From: Panicum virgatum
Taxonomy: Eukaryota; Streptophyta; Magnoliopsida; Poales; Poaceae
Direction of reading: 5' to 3'
DNA: 64,000 nt
Assembly: GCF_016808335.1 (NCBI RefSeq)
Contig: NC_053141.1
Location: 5,448,711 to 5,512,710 of the forward strand
Under the pieces are notes generated by a model. That model searched no databases. It was not told the origin of the DNA and saw only the letters and a program-made list of their open reading frames with translations. The number at the start of each line of letters is the position of its first letter. Position 1 is the stretch's first letter. The translations under genes and the position numbers were made by a program. Positions 14,449 through 63,465 of this stretch are shown piece by piece.

Positions 14449-14466
14449 CCCTCTATTTATAGAGGG
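14449..14466 (-). promoter_or_regulatory. TATA box inside a perfect 8-bp-arm inverted repeat (3' LTR copy)
   Basis: On the minus strand this reads CCCTCTATAAATAGAGGG: CTATAAATA lies within arms CCCTCTAT and ATAGAGGG around AA. The identical site in the 5' LTR, which would drive the element, is 22963-22980. Its position between the palindrome pairs and the LTR end fits a U3 core promoter. The function is inferred. Confidence 0.65.
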
Positions 14467-14515
14467 AGGCCCCAAACTAGCCGTTACACTCAAATCCCGT
14501 GAAAACTGAGTTTTC

Positions 14516-15035
14516 GCGGACTGTCCGCCTCACAAAAACCGGACCGTCCGCCATTCAAAACCAACGGCTAGAACTGCAATGATTATGTGTCAGAGTCGAC
14601 CGTTAGAGCCCCGGGCGGACTGTCCGCGCCCCTGGGGCGGACTGTCCGCGGTTCAAAACTTCGAACCAACCGATTTGCAAACGTCTCTGACTAAATCTGG
14701 AAGTTACCGGCGGACTGTCCGCTCCCCAGGGGCGGACTGTCCGCAGTTCAAAACGTGAGCACACACAGAAACCGCAGTGTTTCTGTCCCAGAAATTTCAG
14801 TAGGAGGCGGACCGTCCGCCCCCAAGGACCGGACGGTCCGCAGGTCATTTTGGGCACCCAAGACAGAACAACCAAGTTTCTGCGCCCGTTTCAGCTTTTA
14901 AAGGCGGACCGTCCGCCCCCATGGACCGGACGGTCCGCAGGTCATTTTGGACCACCCACAGAGCCAAAAACGGTTCTGTTTGAGCTCAACCGAGATAACG
15001 GCGGACCGTCCGCCACTCAAGGGCGGACCGTCCGC
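14516..15035. repeat. Six paired palindromes, 22-bp pair spacing, about 97-bp period (3' LTR)
   Basis: There are twelve 13-bp palindromes of form GCGGACYGTCCGC (or the CCGGAC variant). Centres lie at 14522/14545, 14621/14643, 14716/14738, 14813/14835, 14910/14932 and 15007/15029. Within-pair spacing is 23, 22, 22, 22, 22, 22 bp. Pair-to-pair spacing is 99, 95, 97, 97, 97 bp. The roughly 60-bp spacers are much less alike than the pairs, although the second palindrome is often followed by GTTCAAAAC or AGGTCATTTTGG. All lie upstream of the TATA box on the coding strand. Confidence 0.9.
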
Positions 15036-16088
15036 AGGTCTATTTTCAGCAGAAATGTACCTCGGTAAAACGGCCATAACTCTTAGCTCCGAAGTCCAAA
15101 TTAGGTGATCTTGGACTCTATGGAAAGCTAATTCAGAGGGCTACACAACCCAACTGAATACTTGATCCAAAACACAATGGATCAAAGCAGTATTCCACTC
15201 CAAGGGACAACCTAATTTCCGGAGAAAACCGAAAAACCTTTCTTGCTTCCCAAAGTTGATCAACATCAACTCCAACTCTTTCTCCTTTGCAAATGTGCCA
15301 ACACCACCACGTGAACAACACCATGTGTATGTGTGTTAGCATTTCACAATCATTTTCAAAGGATTTTCACTTGATCTCACCACGCCACTTGATCCTAGCT
15401 ACATTGCAATGTTAGATCGCTCAAGTGGCACTAGATGACCGATATGCAAACAAGTTTGCCCCTCTTGATAGTACGGCCATCTATCCTAAATCCGGTCATG
15501 CACTTCTCTACACAACCTTTGACCGGTGAAATGAAATGCCCTACAAGTCATACCTTTGCCTTGCGCATTCCATTTCATCTTCCCAAATATTGATGCCACA
15601 CAAGCACCAAACTCCATCAAGCCTTTTGATCATCTTCATGAGTCAACACTTGGCTTGATCTTCCTTGAATGATATGATCCACTCCATATCATCACATGAC
15701 CTCTTTGGTCCATCGATCTTGACCTTGCTCGCTCTTCACCGTTGCCTCGGTCCATCGGTGCCAAATCTTGCCCAAGCTTCACCGCCTCGCGGTCCCTCGC
15801 TTCAAAGCCTTGACTTGCCCTTCTCCATTGCAACCGGTCCATCAAGCCAAGCCTTGTCTTGATCTTCTCCACTTTGGTCACATAACTCCATGTCATGTCT
15901 CATATGCAATGAGTTCCTCCATCACACTATATGAGCATAGCATCAACCCTTAGCCATTTCTCCTCCATGGCATATGTCGCTCATACTAGTGTCTTTGTGT
16001 GGACTAATCTCCTGTGTATCCCAACATAAATACTTATTAGTCCACCTAAGTTGTCACTCAATTACCAAAACCAAACAAGGGCCTTTCA

Positions 16089-16102
16089 ATCTCCCCCTTT
16101 TT
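16089..16102 (-). other. Polypurine tract
   Basis: On the minus strand the sequence AAAAAGGGGGAGAT lies directly against the start of the 3' LTR (TGAAAGGCC). It is the expected plus-strand primer site. Confidence 0.85.
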
Positions 16103-18995: not shown

Positions 18996-19222
18996 GCGGA
19001 CTGTCCGCGATATCCTAGCGGACCGTCCGCCTTTGAATTTTCACACCGCCGCCCGACTGAAACTGCCTCTGGCAAATACTGCCCAACACAGGCGGACCGT
19101 CCGCGGTCCTTTGGCGGACTGTCCGCAGTGTATTTTTGCTGTTGAGAATTTCTCTGCAGAGCCTCTGGTGAGCAAGTCCCATGAACGGCGGACTGTCCGC
19201 CCCTTACCCGCGGACTGTCCGC
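18996..19222. repeat. Three paired palindromes inside the internal region, 96-bp period
   Basis: Centres of GCGGACYGTCCGC palindromes lie at 19002/19024, 19098/19120 and 19194/19216. Within-pair spacing is exactly 22 bp each time and pair-to-pair spacing is exactly 96 bp. This is the same architecture as in the LTR, but about 2.9 kb inside the element and past the end of gag. Confidence 0.9.
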
Positions 19223-19767
19223 AGTACCAATTTTCAGACTGTCCAGAATTTGTTCCAACTTTCTCAATTCAACCTCAATTTGGGATCATTGCTCATATAA
19301 AAATCCAAAAATCTCAAATATTGCATGAAAACCTTCAAAAGACTCATATGAGCAAGTTTCAACAAGAATTCAAAAATAAATCGAGTAGAATCATGAAAAC
19401 TCATAAATGGCTTAAAAATTCAGAAAAAAGAAACAAGAAGTGCATATATGAACCAAATGCCATAAGTATTAGTTTTCAAGTCATATTTGAGAAGTCAAAT
19501 GACAAGTAGCTCATTTCTCAACTTGCAAAATGATTTTCATCCAAAAACGAGATTCTACTCAAATAAATTTGCAAGCCATCAAATATTTCCAATAAATCTT
19601 CACAACTAGAAAAAGATACTTGTATGTTGTAGAACTTGGACTTCATAGTTTTGACTTGACATTGGGATGAGAATAGCACTAGGCTTCGATTACTTGACTC
19701 AATCACATGATGAACAAGATAAAACCAATTGAGTCAAGCCTCCAATGTCATTGGTACCTACACATAT

Positions 19768-21804
19768 TTATCCACGTTTTGATGGTACCCAAACTAGGTT
19801 GGGTCCTCTCAAGTTAGGAGCAACATACTTTGGCAAAGCCTTAGTATGAATAGCGGACTGTTTTGCAATAGTAACAAATGAGGTACCATTACCATCCTTT
19901 CTAAGCATAATATTTGCATCAATTGAAATAAGCTTAGAATTGTTACCTAAAGGACATGAATAAGCCATGTGCCCCCTTTCCCGGCATAAGTAGCATCTTC
20001 TCTTTTGTTGAGCCTTTTCTTTCTTACTCATTTGATGCTTCTTATTGCCTTGCTTCTCATAGTTTGCTTGAGCCTTCTTCTCAAGCTTGTTTGGGCAACC
20101 CGAAGCTTGGTGACCCAATATTGCACAACTATGGCACTTGATGTGAGCATGTGGATTCTTATCTTGAATCTTGTTCTTGCTCAACATCTTGGCATCTTGA
20201 ATATGAGTTGGATGCCTTGCTCTTGCCTTGCCACCCCTTCTTGTTCTCTTTTTCATCATCTTCAAGTCATCAACTTGATCATCATGGTTGATCTTGACTT
20301 GAGGTTGGGGTGCCTTCTCTTGCTCAACTTGTGGCTTTGGTTGAGGTTCTTGTTGCTTCACCAATTGCTTGGTTGGGCACATTGAGGTGAGGTGACCCCA
20401 AGTGCGGCACTTGAAGCATTTGATATGTTTAAGCTTCTCTTCTTCCTTCTTCAACTTTAGCTTTTCTTTGTTGGGGCAACCATTTGCAAGATGTCCCATC
20501 TCATGGCATTGAAAGCACATGAAATGAGATAGCTTCATTTCTTCTTGCTTCTTCATCTTTCTATTATATTTATTTTTGCCCCATTTCTTGCCTTTGGCTT
20601 TGCTCTCGATGGAACCAATGCCACTCATGTCACCGAAGCTTCTTTGATTTTTGATTATGCTTTCAAGGGTGACTTTTGATTTTGTCCATCTCTCTATCTT
20701 GTTGCTCAAATACTTCACTTGACTTTGGAGCTCTTTGTTTTCTTCTACAAGGTTAGTCTCATATTGCATAGTAGAAGAAGAACAAGCATCTATATGTGAA
20801 GTACATGGCATAGACAATAAATCATCACATGAGGTGGATACATGCTTCTTTCCTACATCACAAGGGTTAGCAACATTTTGCAATTGATCTTTTAACCCAT
20901 GTGATGAGCTCTCACTAGTTTTAATTCCTTTACTAGAAAATTTATTAGTGAGTAAAGCATGGTCTAGTACCAAATTCTCATGAGCAACACTAAGCTCCTC
21001 ATGAGTCAATTTTAGCTCCTCATGTGAACAACTCATGACATAAAGTAGATGCTTTTGTTGTTCACATGTGTCTTTGAGAAAAGAGTTTTCTTTTTCAAAT
21101 TTGATTGTTTTGGCTAACACTTCCTCAAATAATTTGGTCAAGCTAGCATATCTACTCAAGAGCTCATCATATGAATTAAGATCAATCACATTGCAATTTG
21201 ATACCTTTGTGTCACCTTGTGACATGAAGCAATGTGGAGATGGAGATGAGCTTGACATAGCAATATCATCCGTACATGAGCCAACTTGATCATCAAGTAT
21301 GCTTGGAGTAGAATCATAATTTGCAACACTTGAATCATCATCAATCATGTCAAGTGAACTTGTTGTAGATTGATTATCATCGTCATCACTTGACCATGAG
21401 GTGGAGCAATCTTCCACAACCACCATGTCATGGATGTGCTCATCATCCTCATGCACTTCCTCCTTGGTCTTATAATCATCATGATCATCGGAGGCCGCCC
21501 CATATTTTTCATTTAGATAACTCCAAATCTCATGGGCGGTTTCCTTGTCCATGATCTCACCAAGAATGCAATTATGCAAAGATCTAAACAAGATGTTAGT
21601 AGCTTGGATGTCTAGATCTAGGCATTTCTCTTGTGTTGGAGTTAGATTTCCTTCATCTAACACATGAGATAAACCTACATCTACCATCCACCACATTTGA
21701 GGGCAAATAAATTTAAAATTGCATATCATCCAATTTTTCCACCGTGCAAAGTGTGTGCCATCAAAAATATGTGGACACTCAACATCTAGCCCATAAGTCG
21801 CCAT
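19768..21804 (-). CDS. Copia-type Gag with four zinc knuckles
   Basis: The nucleocapsid/capsid precursor of the element has 678 residues from the first ATG at 21804; the open frame extends upstream into the primer-binding site without an earlier ATG. The N-terminus has the gag pattern found in Copia elements (FDGTHFARWKNWMICNFKF near residue 18, and EIMDKETAHEIWSYLNEKYG). An acidic, serine-rich stretch follows, then a long predicted coiled coil (EELKLTHEELSVAHENLVLD). Four CX2CX4HX4C knuckles come next: CFQCHEMGHLANGC, CFKCRTWGHLTSMC, CHSCAILGHQASGC and CYLCRERGHMAYSC, separated by lysine-rich linkers. Four is more than the one or two usually found. The frame has no stops, which fits recent activity. 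No protease follows. Confidence 0.88.
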   Translation of the reverse strand: MATYGLDVECPHIFDGTHFARWKNWMICNFKFICPQMWWMVDVGLSHVLDEGNLTPTQEKCLDLDIQATNILFRSLHNCILGEIMDKETAHEIWSYLNEKYGAASDDHDDYKTKEEVHEDDEHIHDMVVVEDCSTSWSSDDDDNQSTTSSLDMIDDDSSVANYDSTPSILDDQVGSCTDDIAMSSSSPSPHCFMSQGDTKVSNCNVIDLNSYDELLSRYASLTKLFEEVLAKTIKFEKENSFLKDTCEQQKHLLYVMSCSHEELKLTHEELSVAHENLVLDHALLTNKFSSKGIKTSESSSHGLKDQLQNVANPCDVGKKHVSTSCDDLLSMPCTSHIDACSSSTMQYETNLVEENKELQSQVKYLSNKIERWTKSKVTLESIIKNQRSFGDMSGIGSIESKAKGKKWGKNKYNRKMKKQEEMKLSHFMCFQCHEMGHLANGCPNKEKLKLKKEEEKLKHIKCFKCRTWGHLTSMCPTKQLVKQQEPQPKPQVEQEKAPQPQVKINHDDQVDDLKMMKKRTRRGGKARARHPTHIQDAKMLSKNKIQDKNPHAHIKCHSCAILGHQASGCPNKLEKKAQANYEKQGNKKHQMSKKEKAQQKRRCYLCRERGHMAYSCPLGNNSKLISIDANIMLRKDGNGTSFVTIAKQSAIHTKALPKYVAPNLRGPNLVWVPSKRG

Positions 21805-21838
21805 CCTCTCGGGTCGGTAAGGACCACAAATGAGAGAC

Positions 21839-21855
21839 CTCGGCTCTGATACCAC
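21839..21855 (-). other. Primer-binding site (initiator tRNA-Met)
   Basis: On the minus strand TGGTATCAGAGC follows the 5' LTR end (CCCTACA) after a short spacer. It is complementary to the 3' end of plant initiator tRNA-Met, the usual Copia primer. Confidence 0.9.
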
Positions 21856-21856
21856 T

Positions 21857-24602
21857 TGTAGGGTCGAGATGGCGGACTAGAGGGGGGGTGAATAGTCCTT
21901 TCTAAAATTAATTACGCCGGCTAACCGAAACTTATGCGGAATTGAAACTATTCGCTTAGCCAAGACTTCACCCCTCTAACTATGACTCTAAGGCACCTCC
22001 AAAAGGATCCTACACAAAGCAAATGGAGTGCCAAGCTAGTAAGAGCTCTCCTAACAATTCTAATGCCAAGTCACACAAGCTTAAGCACTAGTACTACACA
22101 CACCGGGGGAGCTCCTAAACAAATCTAATGAGCAAAAGCACAAAGCGAAACCTAAGCTCACTAGATGCTCAAGGACAAGGATACACAATCCAAATCCAAG
22201 TGCTCAACTTGCTTAGCTACACAATCTAAGCAAGAGCAACTAATTAAGCTACACAAGCTAACTAGTTACACTAGGATCTCTACTTCTAGCTACACAAGCA
22301 AGAAGTTGATTAGCAAGCTACACAAGCTAACTAATCACTAGAGAGCAACTACACAAGCACAAGATATAGAAGAATGTAAATACAATGCTTGTGATTTGGA
22401 GAAAGCAAACCACCGAGAAGAGTAGACAAAGTTGACACGGTGATTTTTATCCCGAGGTTCACTTGGTTGCCACCAAGCTAATCCCCGTTGAGACAAGCTC
22501 CAAGGTTGCCGCCGATCCTCTTGCTAGTGGTGACTCTCAAGTCACACTCTCCCACGTGGAGTGCTCACACCGAGCTCTAGCACATGATCCGGCCGAACCA
22601 CTTGTTGCTCTTCAAGTCTCGCTCAACTAGAGTTGCTCTTCGCGGCTCCCGCGGGGTGAGCACAATACCCCTCACAATCTCTTCTCCGGAGCACCGCACA
22701 ATCTTCTTGCGGGCTTCAACGGAGCCTCTTGTCACCAAGCCGTCTAGGAGGTGGCAACCTCCAAGAGTAACAAGCACACCGGCTTGCAACACGATCACCT
22801 AGTGCCACTCGATGCAATCTCTCAAAGCAATCGCACTAGAATCGCTCTCTCACTCGATCGGATGATTACTATCAAGTTAGAGTGAGTAGAGGGCTCTCAA
22901 GCACTCTCACACATGGACACTAAGTCCCCAAGGTGCTAAGCCTACTCAAATGGCCGGCCACACCCTCTATTTATAGAGGGAGGCCCCAAACTAGCCGTTA
23001 CACTCAAATCCCGTGAAAACTGAGTTTTCGCGGACTGTCCGCCTCACAAAAACCGGACCGTCCGCCATTCAAAACCAACGGCTAGAACTGCAATGATTAT
23101 GTGTCAGAGTCGACCGTTAGAGCCCCGGGCGGACTGTCCGCGCCCCTGGGGCGGACTGTCCGCGGTTCAAAACTTCGAACCAACCGATTTGCAAACGTCT
23201 CTGACTAAATCTGGAAGTTACCGGCGGACTGTCCGCTCCCCAGGGGCGGACTGTCCGCAGTTCAAAACGTGAGCACACACAGAAACCGCAGTGTTTCTGT
23301 CCCAGAAATTTCAGTAGGAGGCGGACCGTCCGCCCCCAAGGACCGGACGGTCCGCAGGTCATTTTGGGCACCCAAGACAGAACAACCAAGTTTCTGCGCC
23401 CGTTTCAGCTTTTAAAGGCGGACCGTCCGCCCCCATGGACCGGACGGTCCGCAGGTCATTTTGGACCACCCACAGAGCCAAAAACGGTTCTGTTTGAGCT
23501 CAACCGAGATAACGGCGGACCGTCCGCCACTCAAGGGCGGACCGTCCGCAGGTCTATTTTCAGCAGAAATGTACCTCGGTAAAACGGCCATAACTCTTAG
23601 CTCCGAAGTCCAAATTAGGTGATCTTGGACTCTATGGAAAGCTAATTCAGAGGGCTACACAACCCAACTGAATACTTGATCCAAAACACAATGGATCAAA
23701 GCAGTATTCCACTCCAAGGGACAACCTAATTTCCGGAGAAAACCGAAAAACCTTTCTTGCTTCCCAAAGTTGATCAACATCAACTCCAACTCTTTCTCCT
23801 TTGCAAATGTGCCAACACCACCACGTGAACAACACCATGTGTATGTGTGTTAGCATTTCACAATCATTTTCAAAGGATTTTCACTTGATCTCACCACGCC
23901 ACTTGATCCTAGCTACATTGCAATGTTAGATCGCTCAAGTGGCACTAGATGACCGATATGCAAACAAGTTTGCCCCTCTTGATAGTACGGCCATCTATCC
24001 TAAATCCGGTCATGCACTTCTCTACACAACCTTTGACCGGTGAAATGAAATGCCCTACAAGTCATACCTTTGCCTTGCGCATTCCATTTCATCTTCCCAA
24101 ATATTGATGCCACACAAGCACCAAACTCCATCAAGCCTTTTGATCATCTTCATGAGTCAACACTTGGCTTGATCTTCCTTGAATGATATGATCCACTCCA
24201 TATCATCACATGACCTCTTTGGTCCATCGATCTTGACCTTGCTCGCTCTTCACCGTTGCCTCGGTCCATCGGTGCCAAATCTTGCCCAAGCTTCACCGCC
24301 TCGCGGTCCCTCGCTTCAAAGCCTTGACTTGCCCTTCTCCATTGCAACCGGTCCATCAAGCCAAGCCTTGTCTTGATCTTCTCCACTTTGGTCACATAAC
24401 TCCATGTCATGTCTCATATGCAATGAGTTCCTCCATCACACTATATGAGCATAGCATCAACCCTTAGCCATTTCTCCTCCATGGCATATGTCGCTCATAC
24501 TAGTGTCTTTGTGTGGACTAATCTCCTGTGTATCCCAACATAAATACTTATTAGTCCACCTAAGTTGTCACTCAATTACCAAAACCAAACAAGGGCCTTT
24601 CA
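21857..24602 (-). repeat. 5' LTR of the gag-only Copia element
   Basis: This is the promoter-bearing LTR, 2746 bp, nearly identical to 13343-16088. It carries the same six palindrome pairs (23030-23549) and the same palindromic TATA site (22963-22980). The target duplication CCCAT follows at 24603-24607. Confidence 0.92.
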
Positions 24603-34468: not shown

Positions 34469-37400
34469 TGTCACAACCCAGAAAAAAAAAGAAAAGAAAA
34501 GAAAAATCCCGCCGGGCCCCACACGTTAGCCTCCTTCCCTCTCCCCTCTCTGTTTTTGCCTCGCCGCGCGCGCACGTGTCGCCGTCGGCGGCGTTCAACT
34601 CCGGATTCCGTGCCACGTGCCGGCCATCGTCGTGTTCCGTGCCGCCCCTTCCCTCGCCCTCTCCTTATCCGCGCGCGACCGACCCCCGTTCCCCTCCAAC
34701 CCTAACCCTAGCCCGATCCCCCTCCTCCATTGCCGCCCCGAGCTCTGCTCGCCGCCCGTCGCCGCCGATTCGCCGCCCGTCGCCGCCGATTCGCCGCCCT
34801 CGGTGAGCCGTAGCTCGATTCCGCGCGGGGAGAGCTCCTCCTCCCTTCCCTCGCTCGATTTCGCCCCTCACCCGACCTCCCCTTCGCTGTGCAGGGCCGC
34901 CGGCGAGCGCCACGGTCCGCCGCCGCCTCTGCTCATCGTGCCGCCCCTCCGCCGCCGCTCCTCGCCTGAATCACCGCCGGTGAGGCTTGCCGCCTCCTCC
35001 TCTTTCCCGTGCGCACCTTCCCCGGCCTGCTTCGGCCCTGCCTCGCCGCACCGGCTCGCGCCGCCGCCGCCGTCGCCGCGCGCGTGCGCGCGCACGCTGC
35101 GCCGCGCCGCGTCGTGGCCGCGCCCCTGGGCGGGTCAAGGCCTCTGGCCTCGCCTTGACCCGGCCTGGAGGGCCGCTGGCCAGTGGGCACGGCCTGTCGG
35201 CCTCTGGGCCGGTTCTGCGGGGTGCACCTAGTGTTTTAGGGTTTTGTTTTGGAGCAGCAATCTTGCAAAATTCATATAAATTCATGTATAGCTCCAAAAC
35301 TTATGAAACTTGTTTTGTTTTATTCCTCTGGATGATATCTACTTAGGAAAAATATTGTTTTGCATGTTACTCTGCTGTAGATTTATCTATAGTTTTATTT
35401 TGCAAAAGTGAGTTTAATGCTTAGTTATTTGTGTACTGCTTCAAAAAAATAAAACTAAATTTCCTTAGACTCCTTGTGAGGTGTAGTTTTCAGTAGTGCA
35501 TCTTACTCATGTGTTTCCTTGCTGTTCATTAGGTTTTCATTTCGACTTCGTGCTTGCTGTCCAAAATATGGTTTAATATAGAAATTTTTGCTGGAAAGTG
35601 AGAAAATAGTAAAACCAGTTTTGTTAGCTCTGTTTTCATGCCTTGTAGCTAAGATAATTTTATTGGATTTGTTTAGTTCAGTTTGCATGCCTTTTCTGAT
35701 TTACCTTGTTTAGAGTGGCTGAAAACTCATCTATTTATGGTTATTTATAGGAAAATGCTTTTGCTGCAAAACCAATTTTCATGAGTTCTTTGCATTGTCC
35801 TCTGCATGCCCAAATTATTTCATGATTTATGCTTGTAGTTTAGTTTGTTTCTTAATTCTTGCATCGCATTCATGCATTTTAGTGACCGAACCGTCGGAGA
35901 ACGAACCCGTGGAGCCTGCCGAGTCCGTGGAGCCTGAACCCGGAATCCCGTTCGTGGTCGAGTCGGAAGTTAACCAAGGCAAGCAGCTAAGCATATTCCT
36001 TGCACCTATTTAATCTGATTTAGTTTAGCTATCTCACCGGGTAATGTTGGGTTATATGTTATATTTTGTATTGCATTCTTGTACCTAATTTCCTGCATTA
36101 CCCTTCCTTGAATTGTTATCCATGCCTTTGTCACTTGTTAGTCAATGAACTACTTAATTTGACTAAATACTTAGCCCTGCTTAGAATACTTATATTGCTT
36201 GCTAGAAGGCAATGGTTTGGATTATCACACTTACCTGTTTATCCTTGATCGCACTTGAGCTGGGGCAAGTAGAGTTTGGTAGTACCGAGATTCGAGCGGA
36301 ATGGTAGGGCCTAGAGAATGAAATCACATGGGCATAGTCCGCTTGGATCGATTAAGGACCGAGTGGATGCCATCGGCCTTGAGCACCTTTTCGTGCTACC
36401 ACATATCCAATATAATGGAACGGATGAGCCAATTACCTTCTTTGACTTGATCATTGGGGCCCGGTCCCAGATGCGTGGCCAAGGGCTATGCAGGGAGGTT
36501 TAGTGTGTCCCCGGGTGGAACTATGTGTAGGAAAGTTTAGAGAAGTCTCCGGTGGAACTAAATCTCCACGCGCAAGCTGGGCGTACCCTCAACGGTTGAG
36601 CCTTGTTGGGAACGGTTGACGTGAGTACCCCCTTGCCCGGCGTGATCGGTTGGGTGAGTCATATGGTCCTCGCGTCGTGTGGGTAAAGTAGTACACCCTT
36701 GCAAGGTTATAATCAATTCGAATTGCCGCGCTCTCGGATATGAGCAAGCTCTTGGTTCGCCGAATTCCTCTTAGAGAGTTTCGGTATTGTTGGTTTTGGA
36801 ATCATGTCTTGTCAATGATCTACTGGCTTTTATGTTACTCTCTTAATCAACTAAAAGTGTTTGGGTTGGGCAAGATTAACTAATTTTGATAAGTGTTAGT
36901 GTAGAGAGTTAGTGCTTGCGCAATAATTACTTAACCTTAAAGCTTTTACTTGAGCCTTTGCATGATCCTTGTATATGTAATCGAGTAAGTCTTACGAGTA
37001 CCATTTGTACTCAGGTTGCTTTCTAAACCTAGTTGCAGGTGAGCCCGAAGTGTTATTCGGCCATTTCTACCCCGCTGATCCAAACGCGGGGGAAGAATAG
37101 GTCGTGGTGGCTGTAATGATGTCCTTGAGCAAGGCGTCATTACTTTAGTAAGTCTTTATCGTAATCGAGCTTCGTGAGAGCATGTAAATGCAATAAACTT
37201 TATGGTTCTGTTTAATATGACTTTCGTGAGCCCAAGGCTTGTAAGTGAAGTTTGAAACCCACCTATGTTGAACTTGTAATATTAAGCTGTGAACTCTGAT
37301 AGTATAAAACTGCTCTTTGTGGATTTTTTTGGTGATGTATTCGATTGTAAACGGTATGTGCATATGCTGATTCTGGGCGTATGTTGGAGCACATACCGGG

Positions 37401-37566
37401 ACTACCGGATTTGATATTATTTTGGATGAATGACGTGTCGGTTATTCGTGTCTCTAGATGTGGGATAACACGTGGCACGCTCTCCGACAAGCACGTGTTA
37501 ACTCTCATTTGGATGATAATGACCGGCGGTTCGTTTAAAATAGTATCAAATTGGGCGGTTCTCACA
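34469..37566 (+). repeat. 5' LTR of the Gypsy element
   Basis: It runs TGTCACAACCCAG ... GGGCGGTTCTCACA, 3098 bp. It has an A/G-rich start, a GC-rich block (34540-35220) and then AT-rich sequence. Compared with the 3' LTR it has an extra tandem copy of a GTCGCCGCCGATTCGCC unit near 34755-34795 and an extra GC-rich segment near 35075-35105. Long frames in the GC block are not genes. Confidence 0.9.
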
Positions 37567-37568
37567 AC

Positions 37569-37582
37569 GGGTATCAGAGCTA
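37569..37582 (+). other. Primer-binding site of the Gypsy element
   Basis: GGGTATCAGAGCTA lies just after the LTR end. It keeps GGTATCAGAGC, complementary to the 3' end of tRNA-Met, but the leading T of TGGTATCAGAGC is changed to G. Confidence 0.8.
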
Positions 37583-38238
37583 AGGTTTCATGAAGTGAAC
37601 CTAAAATTGGCTTAGTGGGTTGAGAGTCAAATAAAATTTGATCAATTGCACTAAGATTTACTTTGGTTAAAAATTTGAACTTAAGGTAAAATGATAGCTT
37701 TCTTCCTTTGTCTTAGAGCTAATTCTTTCTTACTACTTCACTCGTTTAATTAAGACATGCTTAACCTCTCTTGTCTGAATGAGTAGCGGGAGCGTAGGAA
37801 AACCCTTTCACCTGCTGGAAACCTTTTGAGCCTTTTACCGGAGTTGAGAGGGTGGGAATCACCCATTGTCCTAAGTGCTATTAGGAGGGTTGTAGCGCTG
37901 TTGGGCAATGCGGTTGTTTTGGGTCGTAAGTGAGTGCTAGAACGTTAAGGCGTGCTCACGATGTGAGGAGACGACATATTGCATTCATACTTCGCATGCA
38001 TGCATACTCTTTTCTGTGGTTTCTAAATTTATACTTGATCAATTTAGTGTGCTGCTGTCAAGATCTTGCCTAGTTGGTTCTAGTTCATTTTAGTGGACCA
38101 AATCTACTCTATCTTTTAGAGTTACTACTCTTGTGTTGATCGCGGGTCAGGTTTTAGCTGTGCATTGTCTTTCCACCCTTCCTTTGTGCATCCTCTATCT
38201 TTCATTCCTGACCGCTGACCGTTTTGTTTATTAACAGG
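37583..38238. other. Leader of the Gypsy element
   Basis: Untranslated leader between the primer-binding site and the gag start. No other feature is seen. Confidence 0.7.
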
Positions 38239-39195
38239 ATGGTGTTGCGTTCGGGAACTGAAAGGGATGGTGCCAATGGTTCGGGCGGCAACAACAATCG
38301 CCACAACGAGGATCCCCTTCCTAATCCTCCAGTTCACCCAAACCTCGCTGATGTCCTGGCCTGACAGACTGAACTTATGGCGACCATAGTCAATCAGATG
38401 GGAAATGTCGGCAATAATGGTCCAAGAGCTGAGCCTCAAGTGAACAGGTTTGGGGATTTCTTCCGCACCAACCCGCCCATCTTCCGTGGCTCCAAAGATC
38501 CTCTTGATGCAGATTTCTGGCTCAATGTGATTGAAGAAAAGCTGGGTCTTATTGAGTGTGAGCCATATGAGAAGGTTTTATTTGCCGCTCATCAACTGCA
38601 TGAGGCCCCTGGGGCTTGGTGGCGGAATTTCAAGGCATCTCACCCTACCAACTACCGCTTCACATGGGAGGAGTTCCGTACAGCTTTTCGCTCCTTCCAT
38701 ATTCCCAAGGGTATCATGGACATCAAGAAGAAGGAATTTCTGAATCTCACTAAAGGAAGTCGTGATGTGATGGCCTATGTCAATGCCTTCAACACTCTCT
38801 CCCAATATGCACCTGAAGAAGTGGCCACCGATGCCAAGAAGCAAGAACGTCTGTACGATGGGCTCTCCGCAGAGTTGCAAGACAAGCTCTCCACTACTAA
38901 GTTTGAAGACTTCAATGATTTGGTGAATATCGCTATCAGAGCTAAGCACAAGATGAAGAATCTTGAGGCAAAGAACAAGCGCCCCGCTCCTACCTCTGCG
39001 GGCGGTAGTTCCTCACGTCCACGTCTGGGGCCTTCTCCTTTTCCACCTCGGGCGCCGGGAGCTCAACCTCCCCGTCCTATGTGGATTGTGCGTCACCCTC
39101 AACCTCCTCAAGGACAAACTCCTAGGCCGATCAATGCCTATTGGAGCAACCCAGGTGTTGCCGCAAAGGGTCCGTGTTTCATTGTGGTGGCCTAG
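38239..39195 (+). pseudogene. Gypsy gag with an internal stop
   Basis: The ATG at 38239 opens MVLRSGTERDGANGSGG. After 41 codons an in-frame TGA occurs at 38362-38364 in LADVLA*QTELMATIV, where a CGA arginine is expected. The frame then runs from 38377 through the capsid domain: PPIFRGSKDPLDADFWL, VLFAAHQLHEAPGAWW, FRTAFRSFHIPKGIMDIKK and LYDGLSAELQDKL. A proline-rich linker follows. Near 39178 a one-base loss shifts the frame within the zinc knuckle, whose remainder (FHCGGLGHIYRDCP) is in the next frame. Confidence 0.88.
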
Positions 39196-39720
39196 GTCAC
39201 ATCTACAGGGACTGCCCCTCTCGAGACGTGGCAGTGCCTTCAATGCACCTAGGCCCAATACTCCTCTGCCTCAAGCATCGCGTCAGGAAGTCAAGCCACA
39301 ACAGGCTCCTAAGCGTGGTCGTCCCAACTACACCACCGCTGAAGAAATTCCGGAGAATGCCGAAGTTCTTATGGGTACGCTCCTAATCAAATCTCACCCT
39401 GCTATGGTTCTTTTTGATTCTGGAGCAACTTTTTCTTTCATCAGCAAGAAATTTGTGCTGCATAGTAAGCTTGAAATGCAAAACCTACAAGTGCCATACC
39501 ATATAGAATCACCGGGTGGGGAAATCATTGCCAGAAACTTTGTGGATAGGGTTCCAATTCTCATCGAGGGAGCTATTTTCCAAGCTAATCTTCTTGTCCT
39601 AGATCAGATGGGTTTAGATGTGATTCTTGGGATGAATTGGTTGGGTAAGCATGATGGAATTATTAAGTGTGGGCCCCGTACCAATGATCTTTTGCCAAGA
39701 TGGAATCTGGTTTATATGCC
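39196..39720 (+). pseudogene. Gypsy protease region, frameshifted
   Basis: After a frame change near 39250 the frame reads YTTAEEIPENAEVLMGTLLI. The aspartic protease active site follows as VLFDSGATFSFIS (about 39412), then LDVILGMNWLGKHDGII. A further frameshift between about 39690 and 39720 separates it from the RT frame, so no continuous polyprotein can be made. Confidence 0.85.
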
Positions 39721-42648
39721 TTGGCGAATACCAAAGCCACGGCGTTGGAAGATATTCCCGTGGTTTGTGAGTATCCGGATGTCTTTCCAGAAGAATTATC
39801 GGGTATGCCTCCTGATCGTGAGGTGGAGTTCGTCATAGAGCTCAAGCCCGGTACTGCTCCTATCTCTAGACAACCTTACCGAATGCCTCCCAATGAGTTG
39901 AAGGAATTGAAGAAACAACTTAAGATTCTGTTGGATAAGGGTTTCATTCGTCCGAGCTCCTCTCCATGGGGATGCTCGGCTCTTTTTGTGAAGAAGAAAG
40001 ATGATAGTTTACGGATGTGTGTTGATTACCGTCCGTTAAACGAAGTCACTGTCAAGAACAAATATCCTCTTCCTCGAATTGATACTTTGTTTGATCAACT
40101 CTTCGGAGCTCGTTATTTCTCTAAGATTGATTTAAGGTTGGGTTATCATCAAATCAAGATTCGAATTGAAGACATTCCAAAAACGGCTTTCTCTACTAGA
40201 TATGATCTTTATGAATTCACTGTCATGTCTTTCGGCCTCACCAATGCACCGGCTTATTTCATGTATCTGATGAATAGCATCTTCATGGAGGAACTTGGTG
40301 TCTTTGTGATCATCTTTATCGATGATATTCTCATTTATTCCAAGACCAAAGAAGATCATGCTCGTCATATTCATATCGTCCTCCAAAAGCTTAGAGAGCA
40401 TCGTCTTTATGCCAAATTTAGCAAATGTGAGTTTTGGCTTGAGAAGGTTTCTTTTCTTGGTCATGTCCTCTCCAAGGATGGTATTGCTGTGGATCCTAGC
40501 AAGGTGCAAGATGTTCTTGATTGGAAGCAACCTCAGAATGTCCATGAGATCCGGAGTTTTCTTGGACTTGCGGGATATTACCGCTGGTTCATAGAGAACT
40601 TTTCTAAAATTGTGAAACCTATAACTGAGTTATTGAAAAATGGAGTTAAGTTTGAGTGGACTCAAGCCTGTGAAGAAGCCTTCCAAACTCTTAAGGATCG
40701 TCTCACTACTGCTCCAGTTCTTTCTCAGCCAGATATTTCCAAGAGTTTTGATGTTTATTGCGATACTTCTCGCATCGGTCTTGGCTGTGTTCTTATGCAA
40801 GAAGGCCGAGTGGTGGCCTATGCTTCTCGTCAACTCAAGAGATACGAAGAAAATTATCCTACCCATGATTTAGAGCTTGCGGCTGTTGTCCATGCTCTAA
40901 AGATATGGCATCATTATCTGCTTGGTAATCATTGCAATATCTATACTGACCACAAGAGCCTCAAGTATATTTTCACTCAATCTGATCTCAACATGAGGCA
41001 ACGTCGGTGGCTTGAATTAATCAAGGATTATGACATTGAAGTGCACTATCATCCCGGTAAGGCGAATGTTGTCGCTGATGCACTAAGCCGAAAGGCTCAA
41101 TGCAACTGCTTGACCATAGCTCCTCCTGTGCATACTCTCTGTGATGATCTTCGGAAACTTGGAATTTCTATGGTCAAAGAAGGCTATCTTGCTACACTTA
41201 CAATCAGATCTGATCTTTATGATCAAATTAAGGAAATCCAAAAGAAGAATAAGGGTATGGCTCGAATTCGGGAGTTAATGAATGAGGGTAAAGCTCGATG
41301 TTTCTCTACGGATAATCAAGGAGTTCTATTCTTTGGAAAGCGAATTGTGGTGCCTAAGGATCATAACCTCAGGCGAATTATCCTTGATGAAGCCCATAGT
41401 TCTCAATTCTCCATTCATTCGGGCAGTACCAAAATGTATCAAGATCTCAAGCAAAGGTTTTGGTGGACCCGCATGAAGCGAGAAATCGCTCGATATGTCG
41501 CCGAGTGCGATATTTGCCAAAGGGTTAAAGCCGAGCATCTCAAACCAGCTGGTACTCTTCAGCCCTTACCTATTCCATCATGGAAGTGGGAAGAAATTGG
41601 AATGGATTTCATCACTGGATTACCCAAGTCTTTTCAAGGATATGATTCCATATGGGTAATCGTGGATCGCTTGACAAAATCGGCTCATTTCCTTCTAGTA
41701 AAGACTACGTATCATGTCAAGCAATATGCGGAGTTATATCTCACTCGCATTGTCTGTCTGCATGGTGTTCCTAAGAAAATTGTCTCTGATCGTGGTCCTC
41801 AATTCGTCGCTCACTTTTGGAGAAGTCTTCATGAAGCCATGGGAACTGATCTCACCTACAGCAATGCTTATCATCCTCAAACCGACGGTCAAGCCGAGAG
41901 AGTCAATCAAGTCTTAGAAGACATGATGCGAGCCTGTGCTCTTATATATGAGAAGAAATGGGTTACATGCTTGCCGTTCGCAGAATTCTCTTATAACAAT
42001 AGTTATCAAGCAAGTATCAAAATGTCTCCATTCGAAGCTCTCTATGGAAGACGGTGTAGAACTCCAATCAATTGGTCCGAATCTGGAGAAAGACCTTTCT
42101 TTGGTCCAGATTTGGTAAAAGATGCTGAGGATCAAGTCAGGATTATTCGTGAGAATCTTCGCATTGCTCAATCTCGTCAAAAGACTTATGCTGATCGTCG
42201 TCGCCGAGAACTACATCTCAAGATCGGTGATTATGTTTATCTCAAGGTTTCTCCATTTAAGGGCACTCGCCGTTTTCAAGTGAGAGGAAAATTAGTGCCA
42301 TGCTATGTCGGACCTTTTCAGATTATCAAGAAAGTTGGGGCAGTGGCTTATCAATTGGAACTTCCTCAACCACTATCCGCAGTGCACAATGTCTTTCATA
42401 TCTCTCAATTGAAGCAGTGCCATCGTGTTCCAGCCGACGCCGTCGACCTTGAGTCACTTGATCTTCAACCGGGTCTTACCTACGAAGAACACCCAGTTGC
42501 CATTCTTGATCGAGATGAAAGAAAGGTGAAGCGTAACATGGTAAAGTTTGTAAAGGTTCAATGGAGCAATCACTCCAAAGATGAAGCCACTTGGGAGCGT
42601 GAGGATCGGTTACGTCAAGAATACCCGGATTTCTTTTCCGATGAGTAA
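39700..42648 (+). CDS. Gypsy RT-RNase H-integrase-chromodomain frame
   Basis: This open frame has 982 residues without stops. Reverse transcriptase spans roughly residues 45-290: [36 protein letters not shown], the active site [10 protein letters not shown] and [11 protein letters not shown]. RNase H follows ([46 protein letters not shown]). The integrase has an HHCC zinc region (about 41390-41520, with [11 protein letters not shown]) and a DDE core: [23 protein letters not shown] and [14 protein letters not shown]. The tail [20 protein letters not shown] resembles a chromodomain. The ATG at 39700 is simply the first in this frame downstream of a frameshift, not the native polyprotein start. 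Confidence 0.92.
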
Positions 42649-42879
42649 GTTTTCTCTCTACCACACTCTACTTTCTTGATGAAGTTCATCGTTCTAAATA
42701 TTATATATGTGGATACAATCACCATCAAGAAAACCCTAGGAATGTCTCACTCCACATCATCCCTGCCTTTGTGCATCATCTCTTAGATGTTTATCTTGTC
42801 TAGGTGAACATGGCCTCAATCTAGTCCGAGTTTTATCCTTCCCCTCTTGTCTACCTAAATCTCGGGATGAGATTTTCTT

Positions 42880-42892
42880 AAGGGGGGGAGAT
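42880..42892 (+). other. Polypurine tract of the Gypsy element
   Basis: AAGGGGGGGAGAT lies directly before the 3' LTR start TGTCACAACCC. Confidence 0.9.
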
Positions 42893-45800
42893 TGTCACAA
42901 CCCAGAAAAAAAGAAAAGAAAAGAAAAGAAAAGAAAAATCCCGCCGGGCCCCACACGTCAGCCTCCTTCCCTCTCCCCTCTCTGTTTTGCCTCGCCGCGC
43001 GCGCACGCGTCGCCGTCGCCAGCGTTCAACTCCGGCTTCCGTGCCACGTGCCGGCCATCGTCGTGTTCTGTGCTGCCCCTTCCCTCGCCCTCTCCTTATC
43101 CGCGCGCGACCGACCCCCGTTCCCCTCCAACCCTAACCCTAGCCCGATCCCCCTCCTCCATTGCCGCCGCCCCAAGCTCTGCTCGCCGCCCGTCGCCGCC
43201 AATTCGCCGCCCTCGGTGAGCCGTAGCTTGATTCCGCGCGGGGAGAGCTCCTCCTCCCTTCCCTCGCTCGATTTCGCCCCTCACCCGACCTCCCCCTTCG
43301 TTGTGCAGGGCCGCCGGCGAGCGCCACGGTCCGCCGCCGCCTCTGCTCATCGTGCCGCCCCTCCGCCGCCGCTCCTCGCCTGCATCACCACCGGTGAGGC
43401 TCGCCGCCTCTTCCTCTTTCCCGTGCGCACCTTCCCCGGCCTGCTCCGGCCCTGCCTCGCCGCACCGGCTCGCGCCGCCGCCGCCGCGCCGCGTCGTGGC
43501 CGCGCCCCTGGGCGGGTCAAGGTCTCTGGCCTCGCCTTGACCCGGCCTGGTGGGCCGCTGGCCAGTGGGCCCGGCCTGTCGGCCTCTGGGCCGATTCTGC
43601 GGGGTGCACCTAGTGTTTTAGGGTTTTGTTTTGGAGCAGCAATCTTGCAAAATTCGTATAAATTTATGTATAGCTTCAAAAATTATGAAACTTGTTTTGT
43701 TTTATTCCACTGGATGAGATCTACTTAGAAAAAATATTGTTTTGCATGTTACTCTACTGTAGATTTATCTATAGTTTTATTTTGCAAAAGTGAGTTTAAT
43801 GCTTGGTTATTTGTGTACTGCTTGAAAAAAATAAAACTAAATTTTCTTAGACTCCTTGTGAGGTGTAGTTTTCAGTAGTGCATCTTACTCTTGTGTTTCC
43901 TTGCTGCTCATTAGGTTTTCATTTCGATTTCATGCTTGCTGTCCAAAATATGGTTTAATATATAACTTTTTGCTGGAAAGTGAGAAAATAGTAAAACCAG
44001 TTTTGTTAGCTCTATTTTCATGCCTTGTAGCTAATATAATTTTATTGGATTTGTTTAGTTCAGTTTGCATGCCATTTATGATTTACCTTGTTTAGAGTGG
44101 CTGAAAACTCATCTATTTATGGTTATTTATAGGCAAATGATTTTGCTGCAAAACCAATTTTCATGAGTTCTTTGCATTGTCCTCTGCATGCCCAAATTAT
44201 TTCATGATTTATGCTTGTAGTTTAGTTTGTTTCTTAATTCTTGCATCGCATTCATGCATTTTAGTGACCGAACCGTCGGAGAACGAACCCGTGGAGCCCG
44301 CCGAGTCCGTGGAGCCTGAACCCGGAATCCCGTTCGTGGTCGAGTCGGAAGTTAACCAAGGCAAGCAGCTAAACATATTTCTTGCACCTATTTAATCTGA
44401 TTTAGTTTAGCTATCTCACCGGGTAATGTTGGGTTATATGTTATATTTTGTATTGCATTCTTGTACCTAATTTCCTGCATTACCCTTCCTTGAATTGTTA
44501 TCCATGCCTTTGTAACTTGTTAGTCAATGAACTACTTAATTTGACTAAATACTTAGCCCTGCTTAGAATACTTATATTGCTTGCTAGAAGGGAATGGTTT
44601 GGATTATCACACTTACCTGTTTATCCTTGATCGCACTTGAGCTGGGGCAAGTAGAGTTTGGTAGTACCGAGATTCGAGCGGAATGGTAGGGCCTAGAGAA
44701 TGAAGTCACATGGGCATAGTCCGCTTGGATCGATTAAGGACCGAGTGGATGCCATCGGCCTTGAGCACCTTTCCGTGCTACCACATATCCAATATAATGG
44801 AACGGATGAGCCAATTACCTTCTTTGACTTGATCATTGGGGCCCGGTCCCAGATGCGTGGCCATGGGCTATGCAGGGAGGTTTAGTGTGTCCCCGGGTGG
44901 AACTATGTGTAGGAAAGTTTAGAGAAGTCTCCGGTGGAACTAAATCTCCACGCGCAAGCTGGGCGTACCCTCAACGGTTGAGCCTTGTTGGGAACGGTTG
45001 ACGTGAGTACCCCCTTGCCCGGCGTGATCGGTTGGGTGAGTCGTATGGTCCTCGCGTCGTGTGGGTAAAGTAGTACACCCTTGCAAGGTTATAATCAATT
45101 CGAATTGCCGCGCTCTCGGATATGAGCAAGCTCTTGGTTCGCCGAATTCCTCTTAGAGAGTTTCGGTATTGTTGGTTTTGGAATCATGTCTTGTCAATGA
45201 TCTACTGGCTTTTATGTTACTCTCTTAATCAACTAAAAGTGTTTGGGTTGGGCAAGATTAACTAATTTTGATAAGTGTTAGTGTAGAGAGTTAGTGCTTG
45301 CGCAATAATTACTTAACCTTAAAGCTTTTACTTGAGCCTTTGCATGATCCTTGTATATGTAATCGCGTAAGTCTTGCGAGTACCTTTTGTACTCAGGTTG
45401 CTTTCTAAACCTAGTTGCAGGTGAGCCCGAAGTGTTGTTCGGCCATTTCTACCCCGCTGATCCAAACGCGGGGGAAGAATAGGTCGTGGTGGCTGTACTG
45501 ATGTCCTTGAGCAAGGCGTCATTACTTTAGTAAGTTTTTATCGTAATCGAGCTTCGTGAGAGCATGTAAATGTAATAAACTTTATGGTTCTGTTTAATAT
45601 GACTTTCGTGAGCCCAAGGCTTGTAAGTGAAGTTTGAAACCCACCTATATTAAACTTGTAATATTAAGTTGTGAACTCTGATAGTATAAAACTGCTCTTT
45701 GTGGATTTTTTTGGCGATGTATTCGATTGTAAACGGTATGTGCATATGCTGATTCTGGGCGTATGTTGGAGCACATACCGGGACTACCGGATTTGATATT

Positions 45801-45948
45801 ATTTTGGATGAATGACGTGTCGGTTATTCGTGTCTCTAGATGTGGGATAACACGTGGCACGCTCTCCGACAAGCACGTGTTAACTCTCATCTGGATGATA
45901 ATGACCGGCGGTTCGTTTAAAATAGTATCAAATTGGGCGGTTCTCACA
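42893..45948 (+). repeat. 3' LTR of the Gypsy element
   Basis: 3056 bp, same ends as the 5' LTR, 42 bp shorter overall through several indels. Followed by AGAGC, the right target duplication. Confidence 0.9.
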
Positions 45949-46174
45949 AGAGCGAGATCGAAAGCCATGTCATGGAGCAGCAGCAGCATGTAACTGAAGA
46001 CAGACATGGAAACGCCAACCGCCTGGCTACCTTTAAAACCCTGGTCGAGATGCCGTCACGAGAATACAGATGCCCCAGCACCTTGAGCTTGGGCACCTGG
46101 ATTACGCGGATCAGCAGGTCGTGCATCAGGCCGTCAGGGATGAGCCTTTCCAGCAGCGGGGCGTGCTCGACGAT

Positions 46175-61268: not shown

Positions 61269-61860
61269 CTTTTTTTTTTTGAAGGCCTTCCGGCTAGCTT
61301 CATTGATTCACTAGAATTGTTACATCATTCACCAGAAGTTGGAGAATAGACGGAGGTGGCTCCTCAGCCCAAATTACAGAGTCTTTCAAAACTATAGCTA
61401 GCCTAGCTAACTCATGAGCCACTGAATTACTCTCTCTATTACAATGGCTAATTGAGATAGCAACAAACTCCTTCCAAATCTGTGAGCATTCATCAAAAAT
61501 TGGAGCTGACGCCGTCGCCGAGAAACCACCATCTAGCATTGTATTTACCACTTCCAAACAATCCGCCTGAACTTCCAGTCGATAACAGCCGATTTGCTGA
61601 GCTAGTAGGAGGCCATCCCTCAAAGCAGAAACTTCAGCCATAGCTGCATCTAAAACATGAGGCAAGAAGCTGTGAGCAGCTGCAATGAATCCACCCGAAG
61701 CATCTCTAATCACAGCTCCCGTGCATCCCGAGCCGGTGGTCTCCTGGAAAGAGCCATCAACATTTAGCTTCAGAAAACCCTCCGAAGGTTTCACCCACCT
61801 CTGATAGCAGCATTCTTCTTTGGTGCTAGAGCATAGTTTGTAGCAATAGCAGCAATTGAC
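61269..61860 (-). mobile_element. LINE tail encoding an RNase H-like domain
   Basis: A T-run at 61269-61280 is the poly(A) end on the minus strand. The open frame 61794-61300 reads LKLNVDGSFQETTGSGCTGA, VIRDASGGFIAAAHSFLP, AAMAEVSALRDGLLLAQQIG, LEVQADCLEVVNTM and CNRESNSVAHELARLA. This is the plant RVT_3/RNase H-type domain found at the C-terminus of L1 elements. The catalytic acids appear as NVDGS, AEVSALRDG and QADCLEV. The frame is 164 codons with only a GTG at its start (QRWVKPSEG), so it is a 5'-truncated insertion and not a free gene. Confidence 0.85.
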
Positions 61861-62523
61861 ATAGCCGACCTCGGTATGTTTTGAATTTCTTCTCCAAGAG
61901 TTCGTTGTTGAGGAATGTTGAGTACTCTATCCTGCTTGTGATGAGTGAATTGTCAACCGTGCGGTGTGATCGTGCGCTTGGTCTTTGGATTGCAGGTACA
62001 CGGGCGTCAAGTGTCGACGGGGAGCTGCCGTGGAGGTGCTGTGGCCGATGGACCGTGCGGTGCACGGCGGTGAAGGGCAGCCGGGACCGGAGCTCGGACT
62101 GGGTGGCAGCTGTGGCATCCACTCCTGGATCGAGGGCGCAAGCGGCGACGGAAGGCAGGTTTCTTGGTTTGCGCCACAAAACCAAGGAGGCGTACGGCGG
62201 TTGAAGACGCCAAGTCGTGGAGGCACGGGCGTCGACGGCGTCTAGGGCCTCGCTGCGGGCGAGGAGGTGACGGGCGGCGTCTAGGGCCGTCAGAAGGCCG
62301 AGACGAGAACAACGTCCAGGGCCACGGCGTGGAGCGCGGGAATCTTCCCGCGCGTGAGGTTTTGGCGGTTTTCTCAAAACCGGCCACCTACCCGGATTTC
62401 GCGGACCCTCCAAAACCGCGGACTGGATCTTCATCAAAACGGCGGCATCATGGAGAAGACTTCGTTCCGAAGAAAGAACCTCGGCCGTCGGATGAGATCG
62501 TGTACAGGGGGTGCTGCAGGCCA

Positions 62524-62560
62524 ACCGGTCTGACCGGTCCAGCGTACCGGTCTGACCGGT
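62524..62560. repeat. Palindrome pair next to the TATA box
   Basis: Two copies of ACCGGTCTGACCGGT, with centres at 62531 and 62553, exactly 22 bp apart. The TATA inverted repeat begins 5 bp further on. Confidence 0.9.
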
Positions 62561-62565
62561 CCCGC

Positions 62566-62579
62566 GGGTATAAATACCC
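62566..62579 (+). promoter_or_regulatory. TATA box inside a perfect inverted repeat
   Basis: GGGTATAAATACCC: TATAAATA within arms GGGTAT and ATACCC around AA. Probable U3 core promoter of the second Copia element, judged by position and sequence. Confidence 0.7.
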
Positions 62580-63133
62580 CTTCACTTGTGTTAGGTTAGT
62601 AGCGGCTTTTAGAACTTGTCCGTGAATTGTCTATTCCTCCAGGCCGCCGCCCCTGTGTCTCCCTCCCTCTGTTCCTCTCTTTAAAGTAGGTTTTGATTAT
62701 AGATTTGTGAGACTTTGTATTGAAGTTGATTGGGAAAGGAGGCCCCATCCTCCTTGTGCCCTCTGGGCTTTTGAATCAATCCAATCCCCTAGTTTTTGTG
62801 CCCTTGTGTGATGGATTTCGATTTCGTTTTTGGTGCACATGATTGCTAGGATTCTACGAGCTCTTTGTTGTGATTCTCGTGCTTCTGATCCTGTCCCAAA
62901 CCCTCTGGAATCACGAGCTCTTTTGAATTGGATTTCTTGAGTTTTTGAGAAAACCCCAATTCTTCTTGATCTCCCCTCGAATTCTCGGGATTCTTTGATC
63001 TTTAGGACGAGATCTCTTGGGGATATGTTCACGGGGTAGGGGCGAAGCAATCCCCCAAGTTTCATCGATTTTCATGGTCGTTTGGTTGAGATTCATCGTT
63101 TGAATCCAAGTTTTCGGGGGTTTTCTGGGTGCC

Positions 63134-63230
63134 ACCGGTCAGACCGGTAGGCAAGACCGGTCAGACCGGTCTGCTAGTTTTTGAACAGACTCAACTGGTC
63201 AGACCGGTCCTGTGCACCGGTCAGACCGGT
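63134..63230. repeat. Two palindrome pairs in the 3' half of the LTR
   Basis: Copies of ACCGGTCAGACCGGT are centred at 63141/63163 and 63201/63223 (one has ACTGGT as its left arm). Within-pair spacing is 22 bp both times; the pairs are 60 bp apart. They lie about 560 bp downstream of the TATA box, so they are probably transcribed. Confidence 0.9.
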
Positions 63231-63465
63231 CCAGGCAGATCAGTTCTGCAGTTTTTCCAATTCGCTTCCGATTTGCTTCGTGGTTTCGCTCGCTCGTTCG
63301 AGACCCTTTGTGTTGGTTTAGATTTTCAATAGCTACTCCAAACTTTGGTCAGAACGCTTGAGGGCTTGTGCGATTTTGGGACATAGGCCGACGATTCGAA
63401 TTTCGAAGAAATTTTGATCGGCTCCCATTCACCCCCCCCTCTGGTCGCCGGCTTCGGTCCCTCAA

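Follow-up and report, generated by a model that had tools for sequence, protein, structure and literature searches.

Palindromes with a CGG-N5-CCG core occur as phased pairs in Copia and Ty3/gypsy retrotransposons of Panicum virgatum

Paired palindromes in two Sireviruses

Near its end, the window (the whole stretch of 64,000 nucleotides that was analysed) holds six ACCGGTCWGACCGGT palindromes, grouped as three pairs, each 22 bp apart, within the 5' LTR of a Copia Sirevirus, here element 2; a second Sirevirus, element 1, carries pairs with another core. The question raised by this locus is whether the distance is peculiar to these LTRs or a rule, and what might maintain it. The preliminary description of this DNA had centred the pairs at 62531/62553, 63141/63163 and 63201/63223, and all three were found, the 15-mers starting at 62524, 62546, 63134, 63156, 63194 and 63216 on the forward strand; a single mismatch (ACTGGTC...) is present in the 63194 copy. 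When up to three mismatches were allowed, six matches were observed against 0.67 expected, and six was reached in none of 100 shuffles. The features of element 2 are as follows.

61909..63464 (+): 5' LTR of element 2, a Copia Sirevirus; about 1556 bp, the element being cut off by the window end
62524..62560 (+): pair 1, two copies of ACCGGTCTGACCGGT 22 bp apart, adjoining the TATA box on its upstream side
62569..62576 (+): TATA box TATAAATA; the last U3 core begins 21 bp away
63134..63170 (+): pair 2, two copies of ACCGGTCAGACCGGT 22 bp apart, downstream of the TATA box
63194..63230 (+): pair 3, ACTGGTCAGACCGGT and ACCGGTCAGACCGGT 22 bp apart, downstream of the TATA box
63430..63439 (+): poly-C run by the LTR end, the Sirevirus "integrase signal" (PMC2829016)
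63465..63478 (+): ATTGG and primer-binding site (PBS) TATCAGAGC, the Sirevirus LTR/PBS junction (PMC2829016)
63529..64000 (+): first part of gag (MASLGKIPVFSGEDYAYWKVRMRA...), truncated where the window stops; Pfam Retrotran_gag_2, E 9.2e-11

The LTR start was placed from two relatives, L084 and L075, in which the polypurine tract AAGGGGGAG-AT is followed by TG (TGAG... in L084), and the LTR terminates at the CA of 63463-63464, before ATTGG; its identity is 85.9% to L084 and 88.3% to L083. The 3' end of element 2 lies beyond the window, and the AAGGGGGAG-AT-TG attachment site is seen in L084 and L075, with three polypurine tract hits each. Element 2 itself was read as far as the start of gag; a copia-type pol (RVT_2) is present in its relatives L074 and L075. 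On the reverse strand, at 61300-61926, an RNase H-like, reverse-transcriptase-related frame (by eye) adjoins the Sirevirus insertion. The corresponding features of element 1 are these.

21857..24602 (-): 5' LTR of element 1, with the CGGACNGTCCG core; ends approximate
23030..23549 (-): six pairs of GCGGACNGTCCGC type, located before TATA within the 5' LTR; spacing 22 bp in five and 23 bp in one
18996..19222 (-): three internal pairs, downstream of gag, all at 22 bp
14516..15035 (-): the six pairs repeated in the 3' LTR, matching those of the 5' LTR

The interior of element 1 (13339-24602, reverse strand), about 5.8 kb, holds a frame of 681 aa that contains zinc knuckles and matches copia gag weakly, and on the element's own strand no second frame of at least 150 aa was seen. 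Element 1 has a CA-AGTGG-TATCAGAGC junction, the poly-C signal ATTCACCCCCCCTCT and repeated polypurine tracts, with AAGGGGGAG-AT-TG present. By their junctions, poly-C signals and polypurine tracts, both window elements are therefore Sireviruses as far as the features examined go, the Sirevirus set found being CA followed by ATTGG or AGTGG and a 9-bp PBS, the poly-C run, the polypurine tract with AT/TG (for element 2, via its relatives) and a copia-type gag. The two LTRs of element 1 are 99.93% identical (self-BLAST, 13339-16088 against 21852-24602), and as judged from its sequence the element looks like a recent, non-autonomous Sirevirus.

That both elements carry paired dyads, as first described, holds; that they follow the same plan does so only in part. 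Nine distinct pairs were counted in element 1 (six per LTR and three internal), eight at 22 bp and one at 23 bp, and its LTR pairs, which recur with a period of about 95-99 bp, are not independent because they are set in partly similar repeats. With these repeats of about 97 bp, the duplicate LTRs and the one pair at 23 bp, the window alone is weak evidence for a distance of 22 bp. The layout around the TATA box, given at first as one or more pairs upstream of it and further ones in transcribed sequence, is as proposed in element 2; in element 1, however, every LTR pair lies upstream of TATA and the remaining pairs are internal, downstream of gag. The U3 of such elements is also transcribed, within the 3' LTR, so that a place before the TATA box does not imply untranscribed sequence. 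Nor are the two cores unrelated, as had been thought: both read CGG-N5-CCG, and GCGGACYGTCCGC matches the inner 13 bases, CCGGTCWGACCGG, at 8 of 13 positions, with CGG-x-C-n-G-x-CCG in common. Between the LTRs themselves no alignable homology was found beyond the poly-C signal, which bears out the separate standing that they had been given.

By its sequence, the window palindrome is the published repeated motif (RM) of Sireviruses, so that the motif itself was already known and the description of it as previously unrecognised is not borne out. Bousios 2010 (BMC Genomics 11:89, PMC2829016) described palindromes in Sirevirus LTRs with a CGG-CCG core which differs by family, sitting before a conserved TATA box with further copies before the envelope gene, at least 8 per element; the RM was considered Sirevirus-specific, relative to classic Copia elements, and the factor binding it could not be named. 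Table 3 of that paper gives CGGTCTGACCG (Osr10), CGGTCAGACCG (Osr8) and CGGACCGTCCG (HOPIE), the Osr8/Osr10 form being CGGTCWGACCG; the core of element 2 is of the Osr8/Osr10 type and that of element 1 is the HOPIE CGGACCGTCCG. Checked against the same table, element 2 shows the dyad, the CGG-CCG core, multiple copies and the place before TATA, the window LTR having six copies, of which two precede TATA, as a count of the LTR only, the element interior lying outside the window. The present sites thus share with the RM of PMC2829016 their CGG-CCG palindromes, family-specific cores (both window cores included) and pre-TATA and internal clusters, but differ in that pairs of the window type occur in Ty3/gypsy loci and in coding frames also, and the motif is not confined to Sireviruses. 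The main text of PMC2829016 has no occurrence of "22 bp", and its sections 9-10 contain no spacing rule. Open-licence papers were searched, mainly by title and abstract, for the motif strings and for a 22-bp rule, and among the titles listed only PMC2829016 and PMC10760457 look relevant. The paired 22-bp geometry is thus probably unreported, and the sharing of the palindrome between unrelated kinds of retrotransposon looks new.

Spacing across the genome and its limits

The spacing was scanned in the window's own assembly (G000; 1,129,937,113 bp), and the excess at 22 bp for which such a scan had been proposed is confirmed: pairing of both window cores at 22 bp is genome-wide and far from chance. 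Pairs 12-24 bp apart occur in 13,578 places for CGGTCNGACCG (TC core) and in 12,259 for CGGACNGTCCG (AC core), with 0 for the reversed control in either case. Among the matches listed, 45 of 50 pairs of each core are exactly 22 bp apart, the rest lying at 18 (one), 21 (three) and 23 bp (one) for CGGTCNGACCG and at 21 (one) and 23 bp (four) for CGGACNGTCCG; both sets of 50 belong to the beginning of a single contig, and they contain family copies akin to each other. In 20 fetched stretches (194,318 bp), which were picked for containing close pairs, 22 bp accounts for 44 of the 82 adjacent distances of up to 120 bp, and every other distance occurs at most four times.

What lies between the palindromes is variable. 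The 44 TC pairs at 22 bp have 39 distinct 11-bp spacers, falling into 16 clusters (up to three differences), and the inner 7 bp of the spacer is near-random, at 0.06-0.32 bits per position where the cores have about 2 bits, a base count in which the pattern itself fixed the core letters and the distance. Spacers of the AC core are distinct in 44 of the 50 pairs listed, with ends that are less random (0.94 and 1.1 bits). The distances from pair to pair also differ (38, 41, 44, 60 bp and others). With the palindromes masked, 46 pairs, two of them from the window (pairs 1 and 2, the mismatch having excluded pair 3), fell into 15 groups without alignable flanks, some of which are parts of one element family, as is the case for the pairs in U3 and in U5 of the window's family. 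In sum, RM sites are near-perfect dyads of about 15 bp with a CGG-N5-CCG core, arranged as phased pairs and sometimes as longer arrays.

Pairing is not limited to a single core type, as had been anticipated: in addition to CGGTCNGACCG and CGGACNGTCCG there are pairs whose cores lack the C at position 5. Scans for these non-C cores covered 22 bp and 23-24 bp. At 22 bp they occur in 1,074 places (259 for the reversed pattern), and 17 of the 50 listed are fully symmetric in both cores, compared with 0.35 expected; the additional core types among them are CGGAAGTTCCG, CGGAGNCTCCG-like and CGGTTNAACCG. At 23-24 bp, however, there are 6,863 places (559 for the reversed pattern), with 37 of the 50 listed at 23 bp and 13 at 24 bp; these cores are mostly CGGTTNAACCG-like by eye, often less symmetric, and derive partly from one high-copy lineage. 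Among the close cases of these non-C cores in the partly overlapping loci L055-L095, where a case may have been counted twice, 5 of 12 are at 32 bp and 2 of 12 at 22 bp. A distance of 22 bp is therefore not universal, as the non-C cores, by eye mostly CGGTTNAACCG-like, are far commoner at 23-24 bp than at 22 bp and occur at 32 bp also. The proposal that the core varies while the spacing does not largely stands for the two window cores and fails for the non-C ones; how far apart the sites lie seems to depend on the family, at about two helical turns and, in one family, at about three as well. In L093, L094 and L096, CGGTTNAACCG-type sites were seen at 22, 23, 31-33 and 46 bp, some of them near three helical turns. 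A CGGRAGTTCCG pair at 22 bp was also noticed in L091 (485-517), inside a frame that resembles copia gag by eye and that gave no Pfam match at 0.01.

Ty3/gypsy elements, coding frames and close relatives

Pfam was run on 11 of the 20 fetched stretches. Gypsy-type domains were found in six: L070 (RVT_1, RNase H), L073 (integrase, RVT_3), L072 (RVT_1, with Retrotrans_gag slightly below the cut-off), L071 and L086 (Retrotrans_gag) and L089 (Retrotrans_gag, Ty3_capsid, RNase H). Copia-type domains were found in L074 and L075 (RVT_2) and L083 (gag), whilst L085 yielded nothing beyond zinc knuckles and weak matches, and L076 no Pfam domain. In L070 (665-2197) and L072 (5600-7927) the palindromes fall within a Ty3/gypsy gag-pro frame, where each of the three reading frames is used, the translations being PVRPV, TGQTG and DRSDR; with 22 being 1 modulo 3, this is as expected of a constraint that acts on the DNA. 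A 60-bp, in-frame, palindrome-bearing segment is present in L072 and not in L070, with two sites 23 bp apart by eye, one of them degenerate. L089 matches the gypsy element of the window (34480-45949) at 85% identity across 4.1 kb, and its palindrome-bearing segment upstream of gag is unmatched in that element. The pair unit thus recurs in Copia and Ty3/gypsy elements, and in non-coding and coding DNA.

Between close relatives the core type can differ, and among copies the length of the array varies. L094, with CGGTTNAACCG-type sites, is 86% identical to the window element along a 493-bp segment that runs from U5 across the PBS and reaches into gag; upstream of that segment no match was found and the core is different. 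Because these two differ in core, the start of Gag does not track it, and co-evolution of the site with Gag is not supported either here or by the common core in elements with a Ty3/gypsy-type Gag. The TC and AC cores stand together in the 1.1-kb stretch L090, which is not necessarily one element, with one step of 44 bp. A related copy, L082, has four U3 palindromes in 22-bp register, and compared with it the window copy is exactly 44 bp shorter in U3. Five of six copies have their last core starting 21 bp ahead of TATA; in L079 the distance is 22 bp. A comparison of six family copies gave 34 differing bases among 900 for the palindromes, 43 among 210 for the spacers and 239 among 1290 for the flanks; the low divergence of the palindromes is partly one of ascertainment, the copies having been retrieved via their palindromes, and gene conversion could also cause it.

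A DNA-binding protein and the rival explanations

The explanation which we favour, with a probability of roughly 0.55, is that these paired sites, separated by two turns of the helix, are bound by a dimeric DNA-binding protein and are exchanged as LTR modules. The combination of a set spacing with a variable spacer, even across coding reading frames, points to a protein on DNA. Each palindrome would be occupied by a sequence-specific dimer, most likely host-encoded or supplied in trans, and two such dimers would cooperate along one face of the helix, 22 bp being about two turns; binding at the pre-TATA U3 arrays and at internal sites may then serve transcription, protection from silencing, or both, and the arrays would be gained, lost and swapped between elements as modules. 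The sites in gypsy coding regions are a counterpoint, being odd for a simple promoter enhancer. A literature search for a plant factor recognising such a site, LOB/LBD included, gave unrelated papers only; LBD is a conceivable candidate which we do not put forward as a claim. The 22-bp pair itself would be a direct bait for pull-down.

More tentatively, and on balance we doubt it, the dyad pairs could be shared "address" sites of two superfamilies of grass retrotransposons, swappable LTR units with a CGG-N5-CCG core of several types, spaced by about two turns of the helix and borne even by coding frames, each core having its own member of a protein family that decides between activity and silencing. 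A common core in Copia and gypsy elements, together with unlike cores on close relatives, would amount to a cross-element control code, and this, if true, bears on the silencing or tolerance of abundant repeats in large plant genomes.

The distance might instead be unselected, a founding 22-bp unit having been copied by unequal exchange and gene conversion. The difference of exactly two periods between the window copy and L082, the repeats of about 97 bp around the LTR pairs of element 1 and the extra in-frame segment of L072 speak for this. However, copying of a unit would carry the spacer along, whereas spacers of equal length but differing sequence are found in 15 non-aligning contexts and two superfamilies, and the distances between pairs are not constant. 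As the spacers are unrelated, a mutational origin accounts for changes in array length and not for the equal spacing, and we consider it unlikely as the explanation of the distance.

An RNA role is a live alternative to protein binding, given the strong folding of pairs 2 and 3 as RNA: transcripts would form miRNA-like hairpins that feed small RNAs, the equal spacing letting the pairs zip. The predicted fold of 63100-63260 has -76.8 kcal/mol (z -5.75), with pair 2 zipped to pair 3 in one hairpin, and 63101-63270 goes down to -65 in 110-nt windows; however, a cut of -40 is passed by many GC-rich windows (750 of 6389 on the plus strand). Palindromes of the maize Sireviruses Ji, Opie and Giepum are small-RNA hotspots (PMC10760457, PMC5311732) and resemble the present ones in their position in the LTR cis-region, their predicted hairpins and their high variability, but there they are read as RNA structure and as a silencing trigger. 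Decay of a methylation type is seen in one-mismatch sites, where 33 of 61 changes are CpG or CCG transitions, the pattern expected if the sites are methylated. Facing spacers are complementary at 19 of 49 positions (about 12 expected), a mild excess; it is small, however, and two of the seven spacer cases compared are related (L070, L072). A hairpin, moreover, does not need a common 22 bp in unrelated elements, and we hold the RNA explanation to be distinctly unlikely.

Least probable of all, in our estimation, is an element-encoded protein which, in the manner of VANC, reads its own family's core and removes silencing marks, the cores diverging with the families: several core types on one plan, and a gain and loss of arrays resembling that of VANDAL target repeats (PMC5735166), are in keeping with it, but the same core is found whether the Gag is of copia or of gypsy type, unlike cores are found on relatives whose gag begins almost identically, and the TC and AC cores meet in L090. 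The sequence-specific anti-silencing of Arabidopsis VANDALs by VANC (Hosaka 2017, PMC5735166) is the closest functional analogue, by resemblance and not by membership. Short family-specific motifs in dense, dynamic arrays within transposons, and a motif that shifts between relatives, are common to both, but VANDALs are DNA transposons, their motif YAGTATTAY is non-palindromic in same-orientation arrays, and their protein is known (PMC5735166).

Stretches from IMG/VR that contain the cores at free spacing (31 and 23 for the two cores, 54 together) were rejected as GC-rich, prokaryotic-looking coincidences; the PBS word TATCAGAGC is absent from all 54, and 22 bp appears, among the matches listed, in tandem runs only (L032, L036).
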